Of a stretch of 64,000 bases of DNA, positions 14,406 to 26,910 are shown piece after piece. How positions within the stretch are numbered: position 1 is the stretch's first letter; each line of letters opens with the position of its first letter. A model generated the notes under the pieces. It did not search any database and had not been told where the DNA came from. It saw only the letters and a program-made list of their open reading frames with translations. The position numbers and the translations under genes were made by a program. The DNA comes from Thauera humireducens (GTDB lineage Bacteria > Pseudomonadota > Gammaproteobacteria > Burkholderiales > Rhodocyclaceae), in NCBI RefSeq assembly GCF_001051995.2, contig NZ_CP014646.1, positions 2,852,001 through 2,916,000 on the forward strand, given 5' to 3'.

Positions 14406-14481
<76 letters not shown>

Positions 14482-14490
14482 GATTCAATG

Positions 14491-14520
14491 AAAGGCCGAT
14501 TCGAGAGGGTCGGCTTTTTT
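14491..14520 (+). terminator. Terminator-like hairpin between tRNA-Lys and tRNA-Thr
   Basis: AAAG and CCGATTC (bulged G between them) pair with GGGTCGG and CTTT around a GAGA loop and run into TTTTTT. It should reduce, but perhaps not abolish, read-through into the three following tRNA genes, which have no clear promoter of their own. Confidence 0.6.
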
Positions 14521-14559
14521 GCTCCCGAGGGTAGCAAGTTCGGAAGCAGGCAGGGGTCT

Positions 14560-14634
14560 GCCCATGTAGCTCAGTGGCAGAGCACTCCCTTGGTAAGGGA
14601 GAGGCCGGCAGTTCAATCCTGCCCATGGGCACCA
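14560..14634 (+). tRNA. tRNA-Thr (anticodon GGT)
   Basis: 75 nt with CCA encoded. Acceptor GCCCATG/CATGGGC, anticodon stem CTCCC/GGGAG with loop TTGGTAA (anticodon GGT), and a regular T-arm GGCAG-TTCAATC-CTGCC. Confidence 0.96.
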
Positions 14635-14662
14635 AGCGGGCCCTGCCGACACACGGTTTCAT

Positions 14663-14738
14663 GCGGGAATAGCTCAGTTGGTAGAGCGCAACCTTGCCAA
14701 GGTTGAGGTCGCGAGTTCGAGACTCGTTTCCCGCTCCA
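14663..14738 (+). tRNA. tRNA-Gly (anticodon GCC)
   Basis: 76 nt with CCA encoded. Acceptor GCGGGAA/TTCCCGC, anticodon stem CAACC/GGTTG with loop TTGCCAA (anticodon GCC), T-arm CGAG-TTCGAGA-CTCG. Confidence 0.96.
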
Positions 14739-14773
14739 GTTTCAGCGCTGGATGCCGCCAGGCATGCAGCTCC

Positions 14774-14850
14774 GGAGTGGTAGTTCAGTTGGTTAGAATA
14801 CCGGCCTGTCACGCCGGGGGTCGCGGGTTCGAGCCCCGTCCACTCCGCCA
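14774..14850 (+). tRNA. tRNA-Asp (anticodon GTC)
   Basis: 77 nt with CCA encoded. Acceptor GGAGTGG/CCACTCC, anticodon stem CCGGC with loop CTGTCAC (anticodon GTC), T-arm GCGGG-TTCGAGC-CCCGT with the usual G-T pair. Confidence 0.96.
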
Positions 14851-16371: not shown

Positions 16372-17193
16372 TCAGTCGGCGGACACGTCGCCCGCGGCCG
16401 GCTCGCGCAACATTGCCTCGGGCACGTCCTGGATGCGCGGCCGCGGCTCGATCTCCTGCGGCCAGGTCGTCCAGTCGGGATCGGGCAGTTCGGCGAACAC
16501 CCGCCGCAGGCTGGCACCCCACTGGCCGTGGATCATGTCGAAATAGGGATTGTCCCAGTCGATGCTGACGTGGCGGGTCACCTTCAGGCCGTCGCGCCTG
16601 TAGATCAGCAGATCGAGCGGCAGGCCGACCGACAGGTTGGAGCGGATCGTCGAGTCCATCGAGATCAGCGCGCACTTGGCCGCCTCGTCGAGCGAGGTGT
16701 GGCAGTTCACCACGCGGTCGATGATCGGCTTGCCGTACTTGGACTCGCCGATCTGGAAGTACGGCGTGTCGCTGGAGGCCTCGATGAAGTTGCCCGCGGC
16801 GTAGATGTTGAACAGCCGCGGCGGCTCGTCGGCAATCTGGCCACAGAGGATGAAGGAGGCGTTGAAGTCGACGCCGAACTGCTGCAGCGCCTCGGCGTCG
16901 CGCTGATGCACGCGGCGGATCGTGTCGCCGACCAGGCGCGCACACTCGAACAGCGTCGGCGCGCTCCACAGGCTCTGGCGGTCCTGCACCGCCGCATGCT
17001 CGCGCAGGATGTTGATGACCGACTGCGTGATGGCGAGATTGCCGGCGCTCATCAGCACCAGCACGCGGTCGCCGGGGCGCTCGAACACCGTCATCTTGCG
17101 GAAGGTGTTGATGTGGTCCACGCCCGCGTTGGTGCGCGAGTCGGACAGACAGACGAGCCCCTCGTCGAGGCACATCGCAACGCAGTAGGTCAT
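16372..17193 (-). CDS. Anbu, proteasome-like peptidase (ancestral beta subunit)
   Basis: 273-residue N-terminal-nucleophile hydrolase of the proteasome/HslV superfamily. After removal of Met1 the nucleophile is Thr (MTYCVAM), with Asp18 in SDSRTNAG and Lys33 in FRKMTVF at the positions of proteasome Asp17 and Lys33. GNLAITQSV and ISMDSTIRSNLSVGLPLDLLIY are also family features. Characterised Anbu proteins form open-ring or helical assemblies rather than closed barrels, and their substrates are unknown. It is the last gene of a six-gene minus-strand operon with ATP-grasp, alpha-E and transglutaminase proteins, the standard Anbu neighbourhood, which suggests it cleaves or processes the peptide product. 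Confidence 0.9.
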   Translation of the reverse strand: MTYCVAMCLDEGLVCLSDSRTNAGVDHINTFRKMTVFERPGDRVLVLMSAGNLAITQSVINILREHAAVQDRQSLWSAPTLFECARLVGDTIRRVHQRDAEALQQFGVDFNASFILCGQIADEPPRLFNIYAAGNFIEASSDTPYFQIGESKYGKPIIDRVVNCHTSLDEAAKCALISMDSTIRSNLSVGLPLDLLIYRRDGLKVTRHVSIDWDNPYFDMIHGQWGASLRRVFAELPDPDWTTWPQEIEPRPRIQDVPEAMLREPAAGDVSAD

Positions 17194-17266
17194 GCAAGCA
17201 ATCCTGTCAGGTCATTGCTCGACGACGACGCCCGGCGGATCGGCGGGCGGCAGCGCCATGAAGCGT

Positions 17267-18214
17267 TCAGGCGGCGACCGGAACGAGAAAGTTGTCGCCG
17301 ATGCGGTCCCCCAGGCGGTTGATGCGCTCGAGGAAACGCTCCAGCCACGGGTGCAGGCCGGTGTCGAAGATGTCGTCCATGCGGCCATAGTGCAGGGTCG
17401 CGTGCAGTTCGCCCGCCTGGCGTGCGGCCTCGGCCGAATGCAGGTTGGCGATCTGGCCGAGGATGTCGTTGACCGCGTCCACGCAGGAATGCAGCGAACG
17501 CGGCATGGCATCGTTGAGGATCAGCAGCTCGGCGACCTTGTACGGCGTGATGACGTCGCGATAGACGTGGCGGTAGGTCTCGAAGGCCGAGACCGAACGC
17601 AGCAGCGCGCCCCACTGGTAGTAATCGGTGGTGCTGGTCGGGCTTTCGTTCTGCGGCAGCAGGCTGTGATACTTCACGTCGAGCAGGCGTGCGGTGTTGT
17701 CGGCGCGCTCGAGGAAGGTGCCCAGGCGCACGAACTGGAAGGCGTCGTCGTGCAGCATGGTGCCGAAGGTGACGCCGCGCAGCAGGTGCGAGCGGAACTT
17801 CACCCACTCGAAGAACTCGCCGAGGTCGGTGGCCTGCAGCTTCTCCGGCGTCATGTCGCGGATCTCGAGCCAGGTGGCGTTGGTGGTTTCCCACATCTCC
17901 GCGGTGAGCGTGCCGCGCACCGCATGCGCGTTCTCGCGCGCGGCGCGCAGGCAGTTCCACACGCTCGACAGGTTGTTGCGGTCGAGCACGACGAACTCGA
18001 TGACGTCGCGCGGCGTCAAGGGCCGCCCGGTGCGGGCGAAGGCCTCGGTCAGCTCGCTGATGGCGAGGATCGCGCCCCAGCCGTCGTCGTAGCAGCCGTT
18101 ATTGCGTGGCAGCAGCGACATGCGGTACGACACGTCCAGCATGCGCACGGTGTTCTCGGCACGTTCGGTGTAGCGTGCCATCCAGTACAGGTGGTCGGCG
18201 GTGCGGCTCAGCAT
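17267..18214 (-). CDS. Alpha-E domain protein
   Basis: 315-residue all-helical protein of the alpha-E (DUF403) family. The N-terminus LSRTADHLYWMARYTERAENTVRMLDV is the family signature, with later conserved stretches FLERADNTARLLDVKYH and ERFLERINRLGDRIGDNF. No catalytic activity is known; its constant association with circularly permuted ATP-grasp enzymes suggests a partner or regulatory subunit. It lies 37 bp after the ATP-grasp gene and 73 bp before anbu, with GGGAG before its ATG. Confidence 0.9.
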   Translation of the reverse strand: MLSRTADHLYWMARYTERAENTVRMLDVSYRMSLLPRNNGCYDDGWGAILAISELTEAFARTGRPLTPRDVIEFVVLDRNNLSSVWNCLRAARENAHAVRGTLTAEMWETTNATWLEIRDMTPEKLQATDLGEFFEWVKFRSHLLRGVTFGTMLHDDAFQFVRLGTFLERADNTARLLDVKYHSLLPQNESPTSTTDYYQWGALLRSVSAFETYRHVYRDVITPYKVAELLILNDAMPRSLHSCVDAVNDILGQIANLHSAEAARQAGELHATLHYGRMDDIFDTGLHPWLERFLERINRLGDRIGDNFLVPVAA

Positions 18215-18251
18215 GATGATTCTCCCGGCGTGATTCGATGCGCGATCGGAT

Positions 18252-19700
18252 TCAGTTGACGACCCAGGTGTCCTTGGTGCCCCCGCCCTGCGAGGAATTG
18301 ACCACCAGCGAGCCGGCCTTCATCGCCACACGGGTCAGGCCGCCGGGCACCATGCGGATCTCCTTGCCCCCGGACAGCACGAAGGGGCGCAGGTCGATGT
18401 GGCGCGGTGCGATGCCGGCGTCGACGAAGGTCGGGCAGGTCGACAGGGACAGCGTGGGCTGTGCGATGTACTTCTCGGGCGCGGCGAGGATGCGCTGGCG
18501 GAAGTCCTCAATCTCGGCACGGGTCGCGGCCGGGCCGACGAGCATGCCGTAGCCCCCGGCGCCATGGACTTCCTTCACCACCAGTTCGGGCAGGTGCGCA
18601 AGCGTGTAGGCGAGGTCGTCCGGCTCGCGCAGCATGTAGGTCGGCACGTTGTTGAGGATCGGTTCCTCGCCGAGGTAGAAGCGCACCATCTCCGGCACGT
18701 AGGGGTAGATCGACTTGTCGTCGGCCACGCCGGTGCCGACCGCGTTGGCCAGCGTCACCCGCCCGGCGCGATAGGCGGACATCAGGCCCGGCACGCCCAG
18801 CATCGAATCGGGGCGGAACACCTGCGGGTCGAGGAAGTCGTCGTCGAGGCGGCGATAGATCACGTCGACCCGGCGCGGTCCCTGGGTGGTGCGCATGTAG
18901 ACGGTGTCGTCCTTGACGAACAGGTCCTGCCCCTCGACCAGCTCGACGCCCATCTGCTGGGCGAGGAAGCTGTGCTCGAAGTAGGCGCTGTTGTAGGCGC
19001 CGGGTGTCAGCACCACCGCCGTCGGGTCGAGCACGCCGGCGGGCGCGACCGCACGCAGGGTCTCGAGCAGCAGATCGGGGTAGTGCTCGACCGGCTGCAC
19101 GTTGTAGCGCGAGAACAGGTCGGGGAAGAGCCGCATCATCATCTTGCGGTTCTCCAGCAGGTAGCTCACGCCCGAGGGCACGCGCAGGTTGTCCTCCAGC
19201 ACGTAGTACTCGCCCTTGCCGTCCGCGCCCGCCGCCCGCACCAGATCGATGCCGGCAATCATCGCGTACAGGCCGCCCGGCACCTCGACGCCCTTCATCT
19301 CGCCGCGGAACTGGGCGTTGTTGAGCACCTGGTCGGCCGGCAGGCGGCCGGCGCGCAGGATCTCCTGGCCGTGGTAGATGTCGGCGAGGAAGGCGTTGAG
19401 CGCTTTCACGCGCTGGCGCAGGCCGGCTTCGAGCGCCGTCCACTCCTCGCCCGGAATGATCCGCGGCAGCAGGTCGAAGGGAATCAGGCGCTCCTTGCCC
19501 CCTTCGGCGCCATACACGTTGAAGGTGATGCCGACGCGGTGGAAGGCGACGTCGGCCTCGCTGCGCTTGCGCTCGATGCGCTCGCGCGGCGTGTCGGCCA
19601 GCCAGTCGGCGTAGGCGAGGTAGTGCGGACGGACGGCGCCATCCGGGGCGTGCATTTCATCGTAGGGTTTCGCGGCGGTGGTCGTGCTGTCTGCGGTCAT
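18252..19700 (-). CDS. Circularly permuted ATP-grasp protein (stand-alone copy)
   Basis: 482-residue predicted ATP-dependent carboxylate-amine/thiol ligase of the circularly permuted type 2 ATP-grasp family (DUF404/DUF407). Visible motifs: ITFNVYGAEGGKERLIPFDLLPRII, YYVLEDNLRVPSGVSYLLENR, VVLTPGAYNSAYFEHSFLAQQMG, LVEGQDLFVKDDTVYMRT, LANAVGTGVADDKSIYPYVP, VVKEVHGAGGYGMLVGP and RMVPGGLTRVA. These match the first 500 residues of the fused protein encoded at 20782-23427, so the cluster has two paralogous ligases. AAGGGAG precedes the start. A 129-bp gap with a 16-bp palindrome separates it from the upstream transglutaminase gene, so a second promoter is possible. The acceptor and donor are unknown. 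Confidence 0.9.
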   Translation of the reverse strand: MTADSTTTAAKPYDEMHAPDGAVRPHYLAYADWLADTPRERIERKRSEADVAFHRVGITFNVYGAEGGKERLIPFDLLPRIIPGEEWTALEAGLRQRVKALNAFLADIYHGQEILRAGRLPADQVLNNAQFRGEMKGVEVPGGLYAMIAGIDLVRAAGADGKGEYYVLEDNLRVPSGVSYLLENRKMMMRLFPDLFSRYNVQPVEHYPDLLLETLRAVAPAGVLDPTAVVLTPGAYNSAYFEHSFLAQQMGVELVEGQDLFVKDDTVYMRTTQGPRRVDVIYRRLDDDFLDPQVFRPDSMLGVPGLMSAYRAGRVTLANAVGTGVADDKSIYPYVPEMVRFYLGEEPILNNVPTYMLREPDDLAYTLAHLPELVVKEVHGAGGYGMLVGPAATRAEIEDFRQRILAAPEKYIAQPTLSLSTCPTFVDAGIAPRHIDLRPFVLSGGKEIRMVPGGLTRVAMKAGSLVVNSSQGGGTKDTWVVN

Positions 19701-19798
19701 GATTGGGCTCCCTTGCGACGCGATTCAGCAGAAAGCGTGCCAATCCCGCGAAGCACGCACGGATGCGGCTTCGCAGCCTGCTGCGCGGCGGGCACTGC

Positions 19799-19814
19799 GG
19801 TGGTGCGCACCACC
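19799..19814. repeat. Perfect 16-bp palindrome in the intra-operon gap
   Basis: GGTGGTGCGCACCACC lies between the small transglutaminase gene and the stand-alone ATP-grasp gene, the only sizeable gap (129 bp) in the operon. It could be an operator or, in RNA, a short stem without a usable loop; no clear promoter hexamers are seen next to it. Confidence 0.35.
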
Positions 19815-19829
19815 ACGGCATCCGATGCA

Positions 19830-20765
19830 TCAACATGGTGCGCGGATGTCGTCGCACGGGGCCTCCACCGGCATCACCGTCACCGCCACCTCGACGGCAT
19901 GCCCGGCCCCACCGAGGATGACGCCGCGCAGCGGACACACGTCGCCGTAGTCGCGCCCCCAGGCCAGCGTGATGTGGCCATCGCCGGGCTGCATGTCGTT
20001 GGTCGGATCGAACTCCACCCAGCCCACGCCGGGACACCACACGCCCACCCAGGCGTGCGAAGCGTCGGCCCCGACCAGCCGCGCCTGCCCCGGTGGCGGC
20101 GCGGTCAGCAGGTAACCCGACACGTAGCGCGCCGCCAGCCCGAGCGAACGCAGGCAGGCGATCATCAGCTGCGAGAAGTCCTGGCACACGCCGCGCCGCG
20201 CGGCGAAGACCTGGGCGACCGGCGTGGCGACGTCGGTCGCGGCCGGATCGAAGCGGAAATCGGCGTGGATGCGCGCAGACAGCGCCGCGCTCGCCTCGAG
20301 CAGCGGACGCTCGGGCGTGAAGCACGGCAGGGCGTAGTCCGCGTAGCGCGCCGCCTCGGCGCCGAGCGCCACGAAGGGCGAGGCGAAGCGGTACTGCCCG
20401 GCGTCGCGCGCCTCGGCCTGCAGCGGCGCATGGCCCGACAGGGCATCGCGCAGATGGTCGCGCGCCGCCTCCCACGGCAGGCTGGCAGCCGGGTCCGGCC
20501 AGTCCGGCGCGAGCACGCCGACGCGGCTGCGCGCCCGCACGCTCAGGCGGTCGTGCGCGGCATAGAGGCTGAAGCAGCTCACCGGATTGCCGAAGAAGTC
20601 CGTCCGCTCGCGCCGCTGCGCCGGCACCGGATCGATCTCCAGCACGTACGACACCAGCCGCTGGCGCAGGCTTTCACGCGGCCGCAGGTGCGCGACCTGC
20701 TGCGACAGCAGCACCGGGCTGGTGTAGCGGTAGGTCGTGTCGTGAAGCAGCTCGTAGAACTGCAT
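19830..20765 (-). CDS. Transglutaminase-like protein (small, 311 residues)
   Basis: Papain-fold transglutaminase-like protein with an N-terminal beta domain (YELLHDTTYRYTSPVLLSQQVAHLRPR) and a core domain carrying the full Cys-His-Asp triad: Cys194 in RGVCQDFSQL, His237 in ASHAWVGVW and Asp253 in EFDPTND. Bacterial members may act as peptidases, amidases or cross-linkers. No signal peptide is visible, so a cytoplasmic role with the ATP-grasp enzymes is likely. Start ATG 20765 gives the family N-terminus; the frame is open another 70 codons upstream but that overlaps the preceding gene. It follows that gene by 16 bp. Confidence 0.88.
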   Translation of the reverse strand: MQFYELLHDTTYRYTSPVLLSQQVAHLRPRESLRQRLVSYVLEIDPVPAQRRERTDFFGNPVSCFSLYAAHDRLSVRARSRVGVLAPDWPDPAASLPWEAARDHLRDALSGHAPLQAEARDAGQYRFASPFVALGAEAARYADYALPCFTPERPLLEASAALSARIHADFRFDPAATDVATPVAQVFAARRGVCQDFSQLMIACLRSLGLAARYVSGYLLTAPPPGQARLVGADASHAWVGVWCPGVGWVEFDPTNDMQPGDGHITLAWGRDYGDVCPLRGVILGGAGHAVEVAVTVMPVEAPCDDIRAPC

Positions 20766-20781
20766 CGCGTCGGCGGGCCGT

Positions 20782-23427
20782 TCAGCGGGAGGCCGTGGCA
20801 TGGCTGCGCGCGTCCAGGTGGGTGAAGTAGCGCTGCGAGAGGACATCCGACAGCGTGTTGCCGGCCGCCCAGATGCGCTGAAGCAGGCCGAAGACCGTGG
20901 CGCAGGCCGCGGCGGCGTGGGTCGCCCGGCCGTCGGCAGCGAGGCCGGCCAGGCAGTCGCAGTCGGCGACGGCATCGAGCTCGCGCATCAGCACGGCCAG
21001 GGGCTCGCCCAGCGCGGCGCCATCGGGCAGGCGCGCCAGGTGGTCGACCAGCGAATCGAGCTGGTAGCGCAAGGCGCGCGGGTTGTCGCCGTCGAACATC
21101 ACCAGCTCCGCGACCGGCCGCGGCGCCAGGCCGCGCGCATGACGGCTGCGGTAGCGGATCTCGCCGTCGGTCACGGCCAGCAGGGCCTCGAGCGCGCCTC
21201 GCTGCGGCACCGCCAGCAGCACCGCCAGCGCCGAAGCGAGGAACTGCAGGCGCTCGATGCGGCGGCCGATCGACAGGAAGCGCCAGCCGGCGTCGCGCGG
21301 CATGCTCTCGATGACGAAGCCCGACAGCGTCACCAGCGACAGCAGCGATTCGTCGAGGCGGTGCATCGCCTCACCCAGGCCGGGCGCCTCGGTCACCGGC
21401 GTCGCAAATCCGGCGAGGCGGTTGTAGATGCGCCAGCTGTCCGGCGACAGGCGGTCGCGCAGTTGCGCGGCCAGCCGCAACACCATGCGCAGGTTGGCGA
21501 CGACGCTGCCGCTGCGCGTGTCGTCGAACAGGGCGCACGCCAGCGCCTGCGCACTTGCGCCGCCTTCGCCACCCTCCGCGTCCTCCGCGCGCTCGCCCGC
21601 CCGCGGCAGCACGCCGCAGCGCCGGCACAGCTCGGCCAACGCGGCCACCGTGGGCGAATCCGCCTGCGCAGCGGCCTCGCCCGCGGCCGGCCCGACGTGG
21701 TCGAGCACGGCCAGCCCGCCGACGCGGCCCAGCGTCTCGCGCCCCAGGCGCGCTGCGCCGTCGGCACGCTCGCTGTAGCGGCCGAGCCAGAAGAAGCTCT
21801 CCGCCACACGGCTGGCCAGTCCCGGTGCCGCGAGGCTACGCTCGCGCAGCGCGATCTGCCCCGGCACCGCGGGGCGCCGGCTTGGTCGCACCGTTTCCGC
21901 CGGGCCACTGAGCACCCACGCATCCTTGCTGCCGCCACCGTGCTGCATCGACACCACGCGCATGTCGGTCTCGGGTGCCACCCGCACCAGGCCGCCCGGC
22001 ATCACGCGAAAACCGTCGGGGCCGACCGCCGCGAACACCCGCAGCCCGATGTTGCGCGCCACCAGGCCCGCGGCCGGTTCGTCCTCAGCCGCCAGCACCG
22101 GCGCCTGCGAGATGTTCACCATCTCCTGCGCGACGAACTCGAACGGACGTGCGGCAATGCGCGCGGCGAGGCCGTCGAGCTCCGCCGCCGGCAGGTCGCG
22201 ACAGAACAGCGGACCGGCGCCCACGGTCGGGTAGGCCGGCTTCACCACCAGCTCCCGCAGGTGCTTCAGCGTGTAGTCGCAAGCGGCCTTCTCGCCGCAC
22301 CACCAGGTCGCGACCGAGGGCATCCTCAGCTTCTGGCCGAGCAGGTGTTCGGCCAGGCGCGGCAGGTAGCCCAGCAGCGCGCCGGTCTCGAGGATGCCGC
22401 TGCCCAGCGCGTTGGCCACCGCGACCTGGCCGGCGCGCACCGCCGCCACCAGGCCGGCCACCCCCAGCGCCGAGTCGTCGCGCAGCTCGAGCGGGTCGCA
22501 CCAGATGTCGTCGACGCGGCGCAGGATGACATGCACCCGGCGCAGGCCCTCGAGCGTGCGCAGGAAGACCTTCTCGTCGCGCACCGTCAGGTCCTGCCCC
22601 TCGACCAGCGGAAAGCCCATCTCGCGCGCCAGGAAGGCGTGCTCGAAATAGGTTTCGTTGTACGGACCGGGCGTCAGCACGACGATCAGCGGGGCATCGC
22701 CGTCCCCGGCCCGGCCCGGCCCCTTCTCCTCTCCTCCATCCTCCGGGGCCAGGGCCGCCAATCCGTCACGGAAGGTCTCGAAGAAGGGCACCAGCGGCTG
22801 CACGCCCGCAGCGCGATACAGCTCGGGCAACGCACGCGCCACCACGCCGCGGTTCTCCAGCGCATAGCCGGCGCCCGACGGGGCCTGGGTGCGGTCGGCC
22901 ACCACCCACCAGCGGCCGTCCGGCGAGCGCGCCAGATCCACCGCATACAGATGCAGGAACAGGTCGCGCGGCGGCCTGGCCCCGACCAGCGGACGCAGGA
23001 ACCCGCTGTGGCCGTAGATCAGCGCCGGCGGGATCAGCCCCTGCTGCAGCAGGTTCTGCTCGCCGTAGAGGTCGGCGAGGATGCGGTTGAACAGCGTCGC
23101 GCGCTGCAGCACCGCCGCCTCGATCTGCGCCCATTCCGCCGCCGGCAGGATGTAGGGCAGCAGGTCGAGTTCCCAGGGCCGCTCGAAGCCGCGCGGATCG
23201 GCATACACGTTGTAGGTGATGCCGTTCTCGTGGATCTGCCGGCGCAGGGCCTCACGCCGCGCCGCGGTCTCGGTCGCCGGCATCGCCGCCAGGCCGTGGA
23301 AGAAATCGCGCCAGTGCGGTCGCAGCACCACCACGCTGCCGATGCGCTGGCACAGCTCGTCGTAGCGATCGGGCCGTGCAGCGTAGTCGGCGAGCAGTTG
23401 GGGCGGGCTGTGCGGCTGGACCTGCAT
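20782..23427 (-). CDS. Circularly permuted ATP-grasp / alpha-E fusion protein
   Basis: 881-residue fusion. Residues 1-505 are a circularly permuted ATP-grasp ligase (ITYNVYADPRG, ADRTQAPSGAGYALENR, LTPGPYNETYFEHAFLAREMG, LVEGQDLTVRDEKVFLRT, ANALGSGILE, VVKPAYPTVGAGPLF, RVMPGGLVRV); about 537-881 are an alpha-E domain (VAESFFWLGRYSERADGAARL and later IGRRIERLQFLASALA). The fusion shows directly that the two separate downstream proteins of the same types work as a pair. The first ATG follows the preceding transglutaminase-DUF2126 gene by six bases, so they are translationally close. Substrates unknown. Confidence 0.9.
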   Translation of the reverse strand: MQVQPHSPPQLLADYAARPDRYDELCQRIGSVVVLRPHWRDFFHGLAAMPATETAARREALRRQIHENGITYNVYADPRGFERPWELDLLPYILPAAEWAQIEAAVLQRATLFNRILADLYGEQNLLQQGLIPPALIYGHSGFLRPLVGARPPRDLFLHLYAVDLARSPDGRWWVVADRTQAPSGAGYALENRGVVARALPELYRAAGVQPLVPFFETFRDGLAALAPEDGGEEKGPGRAGDGDAPLIVVLTPGPYNETYFEHAFLAREMGFPLVEGQDLTVRDEKVFLRTLEGLRRVHVILRRVDDIWCDPLELRDDSALGVAGLVAAVRAGQVAVANALGSGILETGALLGYLPRLAEHLLGQKLRMPSVATWWCGEKAACDYTLKHLRELVVKPAYPTVGAGPLFCRDLPAAELDGLAARIAARPFEFVAQEMVNISQAPVLAAEDEPAAGLVARNIGLRVFAAVGPDGFRVMPGGLVRVAPETDMRVVSMQHGGGSKDAWVLSGPAETVRPSRRPAVPGQIALRERSLAAPGLASRVAESFFWLGRYSERADGAARLGRETLGRVGGLAVLDHVGPAAGEAAAQADSPTVAALAELCRRCGVLPRAGERAEDAEGGEGGASAQALACALFDDTRSGSVVANLRMVLRLAAQLRDRLSPDSWRIYNRLAGFATPVTEAPGLGEAMHRLDESLLSLVTLSGFVIESMPRDAGWRFLSIGRRIERLQFLASALAVLLAVPQRGALEALLAVTDGEIRYRSRHARGLAPRPVAELVMFDGDNPRALRYQLDSLVDHLARLPDGAALGEPLAVLMRELDAVADCDCLAGLAADGRATHAAAACATVFGLLQRIWAAGNTLSDVLSQRYFTHLDARSHATASR

Positions 23428-23433
23428 GCTTCT

Positions 23434-26400
23434 TCAGCCCTGTCGACGCAGGTCGAGCGTGAACGGGAAGTCGGCGTTGCGCTCCGCCGCCACCGGCGCG
23501 ATCCGGCCCGGCGTGTGGCCGGTGGTGGTGAAGCGCGCCAGGCGCCGGCCTTCCGCTTCGTAGGGATTCACCGGGTAGGTCTCGTAGTTGCGCCCGCCCG
23601 GATGCGCCACGTGGTACACGCAGCCGCCCATCGAGCGCTGCATCCAGCCATCGACCAGATCGAACACCAGCGGCGCATGCACACCGATGGTCGGATGCAG
23701 GCAGGACGGCGGCTGCCAGGCGCGGTAGCGCACGCCAGCGACGAACTCGCCCACCGTGCCGGTCGGCTGCAGCGGCACGGCGCGGCCGTTGCAGCTCAGC
23801 ACGTGACGGTCGTCGTTGAGCCCGGACACCTTCACCTGCAGCCGCTCCACCGAGGAGTCGACATAGCGCACCGTGCCGCCGGGCGCACCCTCCTCGCCCA
23901 TCACGTGCCAGGGCTCGAGCGCCATGCGCAGTTCGACGCGCACGCCGCGCGCCGCGAACTCGCCGTACTTCGGGAAGCGGAACTCGAAGTGCGGTGCGAA
24001 CCAGTCGAACTCGAGCGGGTAGCCGAATTCGCGCAACTCGGTGACGACGTCGCGGAAGTCCTCCGCCACCCAGTGCGGCAGCAGGAAGCGGTCGTGCAGC
24101 TCGGTGCCCCAGCGCCGCAGGCGGCCGGGGGCGTAGGGCTGCTGCCAGAAGCGCGCGATCAGCCCGCGCAGCAGCAGTTGCTGGGCGAGGCTCATGCGCG
24201 CATGCGGCGGCATCTCGAAGGCCCGCAGCTCCAGCAGGCCGAGCCGGCCGGTGGCGCTGTCCGGGCTGTAGAGCTTGTCGATGCAGAACTCCGAACGGTG
24301 GGTGTTGCCGCTGGCGTCGATCAGCAGGTTGCGCAGCAGGCGGTCGATGAGCCAGGGCGGCACCGCCTTGCCGATCTCGGGGAACTGCTGGAAGGCGACC
24401 TCCAGTTCGTGCATCGAGTCGTGGCGCGCCTCGTCCACCCGCGGCGCCTGCGAGGTCGGGCCGATGAACAGCCCGGAGAACAGGTAGGACAGGCTGGGGT
24501 GGTTGTGCCAGTAGCTCACCAGGCTGCGCAGCAGGTCGGGCCGGCGCAGGAAGGGTGAGTCGGCCGGCGTGGCGCCGCCGAGCACGAAGTGGTTGCCGCC
24601 ACCGGTGCCGGTGTGGCGGCCGTCGAGCATGAACTTCTCGGTCGACAGCCGCGACTGGTGGGCTTCCTCGTACAGCGTGGTGGTGCGTTCGACGAGTTCG
24701 TCCCAGCTGCCCGCGGGGTGGATGTTGACCTCGATCACGCCTGGGTCCGGCGTGATGCGGAAGTGCTGCAGGCGCGGATCGGACGGCGGCTCGTAGCCTT
24801 CGAGCACCACCGGCAGCTTGAATTCGGCGGCCGTGTCCTCGATGGCGGTGACGATCTCGAGGTAATCCTCCAGCGCCACCGTCGGCGGCATGAAGAGATG
24901 GAGCAGGCCGCCGCGCGGTTCGGCGCACAGCGCGCTGCGGGTGATCCAGGCCGCCGACTCGAAGGGCGCCGGGCGGCGTGCCGGGTCCACAGCTTCGTCG
25001 CGGCTCGCCAGCGCGGCCTCGGCGGCGCCGGTAAGCGGCATGGCGGCCTCGCCCTGCGTGCCATGGAAACCGGCATGCGCGGCGCGACCGGGCGTCCAGC
25101 CGCCACCGTGGGCGGTATAGCCAAGCCCGCTGTCGGCGCCGACGGTCGCCCCTGTCGGCCGCAGCTGCTGGCGCAGTTCGGCATGCGCCGGCAGCGCGGG
25201 GAAGGCCTGGTTGGGGTCGGCGGCATGGATCCACGGGAAATCGCCCTTGCCCACCCAGGGCTGCGAATCCAGCGGCAGGCGGTAGCCGATCGGCGAATCG
25301 CCCGGGATCAGGTACAGGCGTTCGGCACGCAGGAACCACGGACCGCTCTGCCAGCGGCCGGCACCGCCGTGATTGCGCACGATCGGCAGCACATGGCCGA
25401 TGACCTGCTTCAGGCCCCGGTCGAAGACCTTGGTCAGGCGCGCGCGCTCGAGCGGATCGTCGACGCGCGAGTCGTGCGGATCGACGTTGGCCGGCAGCCG
25501 GCGCTCGCGCCACAGGTAGTACCAGGCGTCCTCGAAGGCCGGCATCATCCACTGCGCCTCCACGCCCAGGCGCTCGCCGACGCGGACGAGGAAGCGCGCC
25601 GCCATCGCCTCGTCCACCGCGGTGGCGGAGAGTTCGCGCGCGAACAGGTCCGGATCGCGCCAGATGGGTTCGCCGTCACGGCGCCAGTAGCAGTTCAGCG
25701 ACCAGCGCGGCAGCTGCTCGCCCGGGTACCACTTGCCCTGGCCGAAATGCAGCAGGCCCTGCGGCGCGTAGTGGTCCTTGAGGCGGAACATCAGGTTCTC
25801 GGCCAGCGTGCGCTTGCTCGGCTTGCTGGCATCCCGGTTCTGCGGGTCGAGCGCGTCGCTGTTCCAGGCCGCGCCGTCGCGGTCGTCGAGCGACACGAAG
25901 GTCGGCTCGCCGCCTTGGGTGAGACGTACGTCATTGGCCGTCAGGTCGCCGTCGATGCGGTGGCCCAGCGCCTCGATCGCCGCCCACTGTTCGTCGGTGT
26001 AGGGCTTGGTGACGCGCGGCGCCTCCCACACGCGCTCGACCTTCATGCGGTGCTCGAACGCGCACTCGCACTCATCCGAGAAGCCGGTGACCGGCGCCGC
26101 GGACGAGGGCTCGGGCGTGCACGCCACCGGGATGTGGCCCTCGCCGGCAAAGAGGCCCGAGGTCGGGTCGAGGCCGACCCAGCCTGCACCGGGCAGGTAG
26201 ACCTCGCACCAGGCGTGCAGGTCGGTGAAGTCCACCTCGGTGCCGGAAGGGCCGTCGAGCGACTTCACGTCGGGCGTGAGCTGGATCAGGTAGCCGGACA
26301 CGAAGCGCGCCGCCAGCCCGAGGTGGCGCAGCAGCTGCACCAGCAGCCAGGCCGAGTCGCGGCAGGAGCCGCTCGCCAGCGTCAGCGTCTCTTCCGGGGT

Positions 26401-26910
26401 CTGCACGCCGGGCTCGAGCCGCACCAGGTAGCGGATGTCCTGCTGCAGGCGCTGGTTGAGCGCGACGAGGAAATCGACGCTGGCCTTCGGCTCGCGCGGG
26501 ATGGCTTCGAGGTAGTCGAGGAACTTCGGCCCCAGCGCGGTAGCCGGCGCCTTCAGGCGGTAGGGCGCCAGCTCCACGCTCAGGCCCTCGTCGTAGGCGA
26601 AGGGGATCTTCTCCGCCGCCGGCTCGAGGAAGAAGTCGAAAGGATTGATGACCGACATCTCGGCCACCAGATCCACCTCGATGCGCAATTCGGTGGTCTT
26701 CTCGGGAAAGACCAGGCGCGCGAGGTAGTTCGACTGCGGGTCCTGCTGCCAGTTGATGAAATGCCCGGCGGGCTCGACCTTCAGCGAATAGGCATGGATC
26801 GGCGTGCGGCAATGCGGCGCCGGACGCAGACGCACGACCTGCGGCGACAGGCTGACCGGGCGGTCGTAGCGGTAGTGGGTGACGTGGTTCAGCTTGACGT
26901 GGATGGACAC
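23434..26910 (-). CDS. Transglutaminase-DUF2126 (putative amidoligase) fusion protein
   Basis: About 1158 residues from the GTG at 26910 (GAGG six bases upstream), giving the family N-terminus [20 protein letters not shown]. Residues 1-270 are a transglutaminase-like domain with Cys183 (GSCRDSAW), His232 (DLHAWCEVY) and Asp248 (GLDPTSG). About 290-1150 are the DUF2126 region, which Pfam links to the glutamine-synthetase/carboxylate-amine ligase clan; visible motifs include [68 protein letters not shown] and [26 protein letters not shown]. It is the first gene of the operon. Two ligase types plus two transglutaminase-like domains in one operon imply assembly and trimming of an amide-linked product. 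Confidence 0.88.

Follow-up and report, generated by a model that had tools for sequence, protein, structure and literature searches.

The window analysed here is a stretch of 64,000 nucleotides from the genome of Thauera humireducens (contig NZ_CP014646.1, positions 2,852,001 to 2,916,000), and it carries six minus-strand genes that fall into two modules. Module A consists of TG1-DUF2126, a transglutaminase-like (TG) domain joined to a putative amidoligase, of AG1-alpha-E1, an ATP-grasp (AG) joined to an alpha-E domain, and of a second TG protein, TG2. Module B follows with a stand-alone ATP-grasp, AG2, an alpha-E protein and the proteasome-like Anbu. We see about an even chance that this is a cytoplasmic system, switched on by nitrogen starvation, whose two modules make and break amide bonds in analogy to glutathionylspermidine synthetase/amidase. 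The reading builds on a predicted sigma-54/NtrC promoter between the modules, on the distribution of the genes among genomes and on residues that mark AG2 as the putatively active ATP-grasp. A first-pass annotation of this DNA had given the order of the genes and their gaps of 6, 16, 129, 37 and 73 bp, and translation and Pfam searches, together with the gene coordinates, agree with it on all of these.

A predicted nitrogen-type promoter between the modules

The 129-bp gap before AG2 contains the sequence TGGCACGCTTTCTGCT, which we take to be a sigma-54 promoter, and an NtrC-like site is predicted 83 bp upstream of it (Table 1). The consensus patterns used for calling upstream sites are those we presume to hold for sigma-54 and NtrC, and the sigma-54 score of 16 is a weighting of our own. 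The spacing is 84 bp in locus L003 and 83 bp in L004, both from Thauera. Between the two sites, a palindrome, TGGTGCGCACCA, was noticed by eye; it recurs in L003, L004 and L006 and in inexact form in L005, and may belong to a second NtrC element. A search of this gap revealed no terminator, so read-through from module A may reach module B.

Relatives were collected in two sets: the best 80 of at least 591 loci from one genome scan (the 80-locus set), and 40 stretches from genomes across the phylum of the window, chosen for spread (the phylum set), which together make 120 loci. Expected numbers of sites upstream of genes were obtained from shuffled sequence. In the 80-locus set, a sigma-54 match precedes AG2 in 67 of 79 cases, where 2.75 are expected, and stays at chance before alpha-E (0/79), AG1 (1/41) and Anbu (0/28); before TG1 it occurs in 9/36 cases versus 19/545 for non-core genes. 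NtrC-like sites of at least 11/14 lie before 42 of the 79 AG2 genes (2.05 expected). Both signals were combined into a site pair, defined as a sigma-54 match with an NtrC-like site of at least 10/14 located 25-150 bp farther upstream. This pair was found before 55 of 77 AG2 genes, compared with 7/545 non-core genes, 2/36 TG1 genes and 0/199 other core genes. In the phylum set, a sigma-54 match precedes 15 of 38 AG2 starts versus 1 of 116 other core starts.

The genome of the window, a single contig of 4.17 Mb, encodes one NtrC above the NCBIfam cut-off. A strict sigma-54 pattern matches it in 14 places and a reversed control pattern in 11. Among the 13 strict sites other than that before AG2, one has an NtrC-like site of at least 12/14 close upstream; it precedes the genes for Gcw_chp, P-II and an ammonium transporter. 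The P-II/ammonium transporter promoter is a textbook NtrC target and serves as a positive control. From these sites, we infer that the AG2 promoter is under sigma-54/NtrC control in this strain.

Some neighbouring genes link relatives of the cluster to nitrogen as well; these cases belong to single lineages and are suggestive only. In seven loci (L011, L012, L019, L020, L034, L035, L041), TG1-DUF2126 is preceded at 40-210 bp by a same-strand gene for a GlnD-type PII uridylyltransferase; six of the loci are named Accumulibacter, and the seventh, L012, which is the one examined with Pfam, is unclassified. In genome G019 (loci L138 and L139), which falls in the same taxonomic order as the window, urtA follows 1.4 kb further downstream than alpha-E, and a RhuM-family gene of the opposite strand separates the two.

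That relatives are under nitrogen control has been published before. In Burkholderia cenocepacia, I35_5080-5083 (DUF404/407, DUF403, TG and large TG) are reported as common targets of sigma-54 and NtrC, with expression 6.0- to 9.4-fold lower in an ntrC mutant (PMC5491218). For Pseudomonas putida grown on nitrate versus ammonium, changes of +4.4 log2 for PP_2685 (Anbu) and +4.0 log2 for PP_2688 (ATP-grasp) are given (PMC8050072), and under nitrogen versus carbon limitation PP2685, PP2686 and PP2687 are listed as 11.1-, 6.6- and 7.1-fold up (PMC3325844). In the wild type under nitrogen limitation, PP_2686, PP_2687 and PP_2688 are 12.6-, 11.0- and 14.7-fold up (PMC7801951). Marine metagenomes associate these domains with urea metabolism (PMC3597751). 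The present analysis adds that the site pair is conserved across the 80-locus set and lies between the modules, neither of which turned up in searches of open-licence papers.

Core and accessory genes

The distribution of the genes was counted in 100 genomes of the phylum with a completeness of at least 95%, the genome of the window included. The counts cover AG2, alpha-E, DUF2126, Anbu and the AG1 fusions, the latter recognised via open-frame length, and leave the TG genes aside; an ATP-grasp match in G021 fell below the cut-off and was excluded. Since genomes are not independent samples, the p-values are overstated, and the nesting of the gene sets is read without relying on them.

AG2-type ATP-grasps and alpha-E occur in the identical 58 genomes. 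All 36 genomes with DUF2126 fall within this set, as do 38 of the 39 with Anbu. The sole exception, G094, has no AG2 or alpha-E match, and its Anbu match (G094:C88:6023-6751) spans two TGA stops; it is possibly a relic left after loss of the core. Five other Anbu matches span one TGA, which may be the end of the gene. AG1 fusions are present in 33 genomes, 32 of which also carry DUF2126. Within the 58 genomes, Anbu is independent of DUF2126 (22/36 versus 16/22, p 0.41), and 20 have no Anbu match. Because AG2 and alpha-E share the same 58 genomes with DUF2126 and Anbu nested inside, the core consists of at least AG2 and alpha-E, and Anbu and module A are accessory.

The arrangement of the genes points in the same direction. 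Both modules can be seen in 42 loci of the 80-locus set, and in 31 of these their order is reversed or their strands differ. Sorted by where DUF2126 lies, module A precedes B contiguously in 9 loci and with a gap in 1, B precedes A in 21, and the two face opposite strands in 10; L076 stands separate, with module A present twice, one copy on either side of AG2-alpha-E. The remaining 38 loci have no DUF2126 in view, 25 of them with a flank below 9 kb, and three (L005, L044, L057) contain other module A parts. Since the modules are swapped or opposed in 31 of 42 loci, a single six-gene operon, as proposed by the first-pass annotation, is not supported as the natural unit, and the site pair lies between the modules. 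Apart from the window, the complete six-gene order including Anbu was found in L003 and L004; L005 (also Thauera) and L006 match it as far as their sequence reaches. Thauera proteins share 91-92% identity with AG2 of the window.

In relatives, module B comprises AG2 and alpha-E, a further TG in many genomes and Anbu in some. In the phylum set, Anbu may adjoin TG1-DUF2126 instead (L088, L089, L090, L092, L111), and in L037 two Anbu genes, 40% and 51% identical to Anbu of the window, lie on either side of AG2-alpha-E. No neighbouring gene around the loci of the relatives recurs across lineages.

The proteins of the two modules

Table 1. Genes of the cluster and predicted sites before AG2 (positions in the window).
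Feature	Position	Strand	Remarks
TG1-DUF2126, 1158 aa	23434..26910	-	first gene of module A; Pfam DUF2126 1339 bits
AG1-alpha-E1 fusion, 881 aa	20782..23427	-	Pfam CP_ATPgrasp_2 501 bits and Alpha-E 202 bits
TG2, 311 aa	19830..20765	-	transglutaminase-like, last gene of module A; C194, H237, D253 intact; Pfam
NtrC-like site CGCACCATGTTGATGCA	19826..19842	-	12/14 consensus positions; overlaps TG2 stop codon
Palindrome TGGTGCGCACCA	19801..19812		perfect, 12 bp; between NtrC-like and sigma-54 sites
Putative sigma-54 promoter TGGCACGCTTTCTGCT	19727..19742	-	score 15/16; in the gap before AG2
AG2, 482 aa	18252..19700	-	stand-alone permuted ATP-grasp, first gene of module B; Pfam CP_ATPgrasp_2 556 bits
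alpha-E protein, 315 aa	17267..18214	-	Pfam Alpha-E 340 bits
Anbu, 273 aa	16372..17193	-	N-terminal Met-Thr; proteasome-like N-terminal nucleophile (Ntn) hydrolase; Pfam Proteasome 27.5 bits

The first-pass annotation had regarded both ATP-grasps as ligases. Five residues of AG2 (E169, N171, K376, D436, N468) are invariant in 119 of 119 AG2s and are presumably catalytic. AG1-alpha-E1, a circularly permuted ATP-grasp joined to a second alpha-E domain, has three of them exchanged (E to A177, N to R179 and N to S493), and 0 of 46 fused AG1 relatives retain these three, with one gap at the third position. As residues invariant in all AG2s are retained in none of these AG1s, AG1 is taken as probably non-catalytic; AG2, with a complete putative active site, is the only one of the pair that looks catalytic. 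Among solved structures, 3n6x (E 4.5e-226), named a putative glutathionylspermidine synthase, comes closest to AG2.

AG2 adjoins the alpha-E gene and forms with it a neighbouring pair of permuted ATP-grasp and alpha-E. The alpha-E protein is all-helical (mean predicted local distance difference test, pLDDT, of the model 88) and has two homologous halves (mutual match E 4.2e-17), each of which starts with an ER motif: E17, R18, R24 and E169, R170, R176.

The catalytic residues of Anbu and both Cys-His-Asp triads are intact, as annotated, and conserved in 48, 84 and 51 sequences with few gaps or exceptions. The closest structures of Anbu, searched with a shorter form (16372-17175), are solved Anbu structures (5loy, E 1.6e-97). 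Its catalytic set T2, D18 and K33 is present, with T in 40 of the 48 sequences (8 gaps) and D and K in 47 each (1 gap each). The triad of the N-terminal TG1 domain (C183, H232, D248) is found in 51/51 relatives at each position; for TG2, pooled with related module B TG genes, the counts are C 82/84, H 83/84 and D 84/84. Transglut_core scores in the window are 75 and 63 bits.

The DUF2126 part of TG1-DUF2126 appears to have a glutamine synthetase (GS) fold. Of the structural matches listed for its model, 39 of 50 are of GS type, with Z up to 10.0; caution is indicated by the low confidence of the model (pLDDT only 65, predicted template modelling score 0.58). Eighteen of 20 candidate active-site residues that we picked in DUF2126 are invariant in 51/51 sequences. 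An NCBIfam search at E 0.001 returned no family for any of the six proteins.

Relation to known systems

The gene set is of a known kind, and the six-gene form is a large version of it. The published four-gene Anbu operon (ATP-grasp, alpha-E, TG, Anbu), as described in passages of PMC6376114 and PMC5666114, shares the order AG2, alpha-E, Anbu and the Anbu residues. It differs in that alpha-E and Anbu follow each other in the window with no intervening TG; TG2 is found upstream instead and closes module A, which is stacked right before module B, an arrangement found with Anbu otherwise only in L003 and L004 (and in L005 and L006 as far as they reach). Iyer 2009 and Pfam reportedly describe a system for peptide synthesis or modification in which permuted ATP-grasps of an active and an inactive kind occur together with alpha-E, TG and a permuted COOH-NH2 ligase. 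It reportedly covers every domain type found here as well as the fusion of TG to DUF2126 and an inactive ATP-grasp joined to alpha-E; the sigma-54/NtrC signature, the anatomy of two modules and the residue counts would go beyond it. The biochemical interpretation of the first-pass annotation is right in part and mostly in print already; it is not supported for the second ATP-grasp and the single operon.

Further parallels exist in ligase-hydrolase pairs. E. coli Gss, whose layout opposes making and breaking of an amide, unites an amide ligase and a Cys hydrolase in one protein, where the window has one cluster with one fusion (TG1-DUF2126); the DUF2126 ligase of the window appears GS-like rather than ATP-grasp. 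The likeness to glutathionylspermidine synthetase/amidase is an analogy only. RimK-RimB and Rlo of Pseudomonas likewise combine an ATP-grasp with a peptidase, Rlo with a TG-fold protein in addition; as far as PMC12239564 describes them, they differ in that their peptidases are aspartic, their TG is an inactive membrane protein and their ATP-grasps resemble RimK.

Proposed mechanism and alternatives

When nitrogen is limiting, NtrC would be phosphorylated, bind upstream and activate sigma-54 transcription of AG2, alpha-E and Anbu. AG2 would act as an active permuted ATP-grasp ligase with the helical alpha-E as its partner, both forming the obligate core of module B, to which Anbu would add an optional Thr-hydrolase. 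The accessory module A would contribute a fusion of Cys-hydrolase and GS-fold ligase (TG1-DUF2126) and a second Cys-hydrolase (TG2), and the dead ATP-grasp of AG1-alpha-E1 would probably serve as scaffold or regulatory partner. ATP-grasp and GS-fold ligases are established to couple a carboxylate and an amine via an acyl phosphate. Cys and Thr hydrolases with TG and Ntn folds, for their part, cleave amides or transfer them. The ligases would thus join carboxylate to amine with ATP, the TG proteins and Anbu would cleave or transfer bonds of this kind, and ligases and hydrolases would presumably act on one common substrate. A cytoplasmic location is suggested because ATP is needed.

Several points weigh against this reading. 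TG1 of the window has only a poor sigma-54 match (11/16). NtrC-like sites of at least 11/14 are above chance also before alpha-E (10/79, 1.75 expected), and the counts elsewhere are 6/36 for TG1 (0.75 expected), 2/28 for Anbu (0.6) and 0/41 for AG1 (0.8); being above expectation before other core genes, the NtrC pattern alone is less specific. In the phylum set, the site pair precedes only 3 of 38 AG2 starts, and co-occurrence with urtA in the phylum sample is not robust to the choice of cut-off (p 0.003 or 0.31). AG2 has no significant match to the GSP_synth profile of Gss-type synthetases (hhalign, E 0.25), and the likeness of the E-x-N motif was seen by eye only. In the expression tables of PMC7801951, Anbu (PP_2685) is only 1.12-fold up in the wild type on nitrogen limitation, and PP_2686, PP_2687 and PP_2688 are 14.2-, 16.0- and 19.6-fold up in an rpoN mutant. 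As the induction persists without rpoN, a sigma-54 requirement is unsupported in P. putida, which lowers our confidence in the preferred reading and raises it for nitrogen scavenging. The same source shows urtA, listed with nitrogen-responsive sigma-54 promoters in PMC8050072, still induced in the rpoN mutant (11.1 versus 12.7 in the wild type), which puts either that strain or the sigma-54 rule in doubt. According to passages of PMC6376114 and PMC5666114, Anbu cleaved none of the tested peptides and no complex of the operon proteins was obtained, and the authors of PMC5666114 argue for protein degradation over peptide synthesis. Anbu operons had structures and no function as of 2021 (PMC8665760). 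On the other side, an ATP-grasp from such an operon in Yersinia frees phosphate from ATP (PMC6376114), and epoxomicin was bound at Thr1 of the Pseudomonas Anbu (PMC5666114).

A tentative extension, which we regard as rather doubtful, is a reversible conjugation system. AG2/alpha-E and DUF2126 would load an amine or an amino acid onto a pool of cytoplasmic proteins or peptides, TG and Anbu would remove or transfer it, and the dead ATP-grasp of AG1-alpha-E1 would hold or measure the substrate. Anbu would perhaps be a transferase here, by analogy to its relative connectase, a protein ligase (PMC8665760). If true, nitrogen control would have a layer similar to ubiquitin or Pup that works with neither an AAA+ unfoldase nor a dedicated tag protein.

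Tagging and destruction of proteins in nitrogen starvation, with ligases adding a tag and Anbu degrading the tagged proteins, seems unlikely. The actinobacterial Pup-proteasome, which is linked to nitrogen starvation and whose PafA and Dop are GS-fold enzymes, also combines a GS-fold ligase with a proteasome-family hydrolase, and the modelled GS fold of DUF2126 would fit. Anbu is proteasome-like with an open ring, binds proteasome inhibitors at Thr1 and is favoured by its describers as a protein degrader (PMC5666114); protein tagging is also among the published hypotheses (PMC6376114). Against this, Anbu is not tied to the GS-fold gene, being independent of DUF2126 and lacking from a third of the core genomes by the counts above, and no AAA+ partner is known according to PMC5666114. 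Nor was a conserved small protein seen beside the core genes, which the first-pass annotation had proposed to look for: among 1736 small open reading frames (ORFs) lying no more than 700 bp from a core gene in the 120 loci, the 12 largest clusters cover 3 to 8 loci each, and the bigger ones seem by eye to be antisense to neighbours or tRNA-like. No Pup-like ORF was seen within this distance; whole genomes were not searched.

Nitrogen scavenging, with Anbu and TG as hydrolases that release ammonia or amino acids in starvation and ATP-grasps that handle the products, we consider quite unlikely. It agrees with the nitrogen-starvation signature before AG2 and has been proposed by the authors of PMC7801951 for P. 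putida and by those of PMC5666114 and PMC6376114 for Anbu. However, the inseparable pair (58/58) is AG2 and alpha-E and not a hydrolase, in a count that leaves the TG genes outside; for breakdown alone, two ligases that consume ATP are expensive; and peptidase activity on standard substrates was not found in the assays described in PMC5666114 and PMC6376114. ATP-grasp and GS-fold ligases synthesise peptides elsewhere, and a small peptide built or modified by the ligases and matured by TG or Anbu, similar to a ribosomally synthesised and post-translationally modified peptide (RiPP), would revive the original peptide-synthesis proposal (as cited in PMC5666114); it is improbable, given no conserved precursor ORF seen near the core genes, no neighbour recurrent across lineages, and a breadth (58/100 genomes) and nitrogen control that better suit primary metabolism.

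Genomic surroundings

The genes flanking the cluster look unrelated to it. One flank carries a divergent VanZ-domain gene, the opposite one a gene without Pfam match followed by phasin, a tRNA cluster and RuvC. Four consecutive tRNA genes, Lys (CTT), Thr (GGT), Gly (GCC) and Asp (GTC), occupy positions 14406-14850 of the window.

Implications

For a proposed amide-making and amide-breaking system switched by nitrogen, this study usefully adds a predicted nitrogen-type promoter, a division into core and accessory genes, and residues that speak for a probably inactive AG1. The promoter signature points to nitrogen starvation as the condition under which the enzymes would act. Co-occurrence separates the inseparable AG2 and alpha-E from the accessory Anbu and module A, and the residue counts indicate AG2 as the ATP-grasp to assay and AG1 as the one to treat as a scaffold. 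The long-standing question of what Anbu operons do thereby becomes directly testable in P. putida KT2440.

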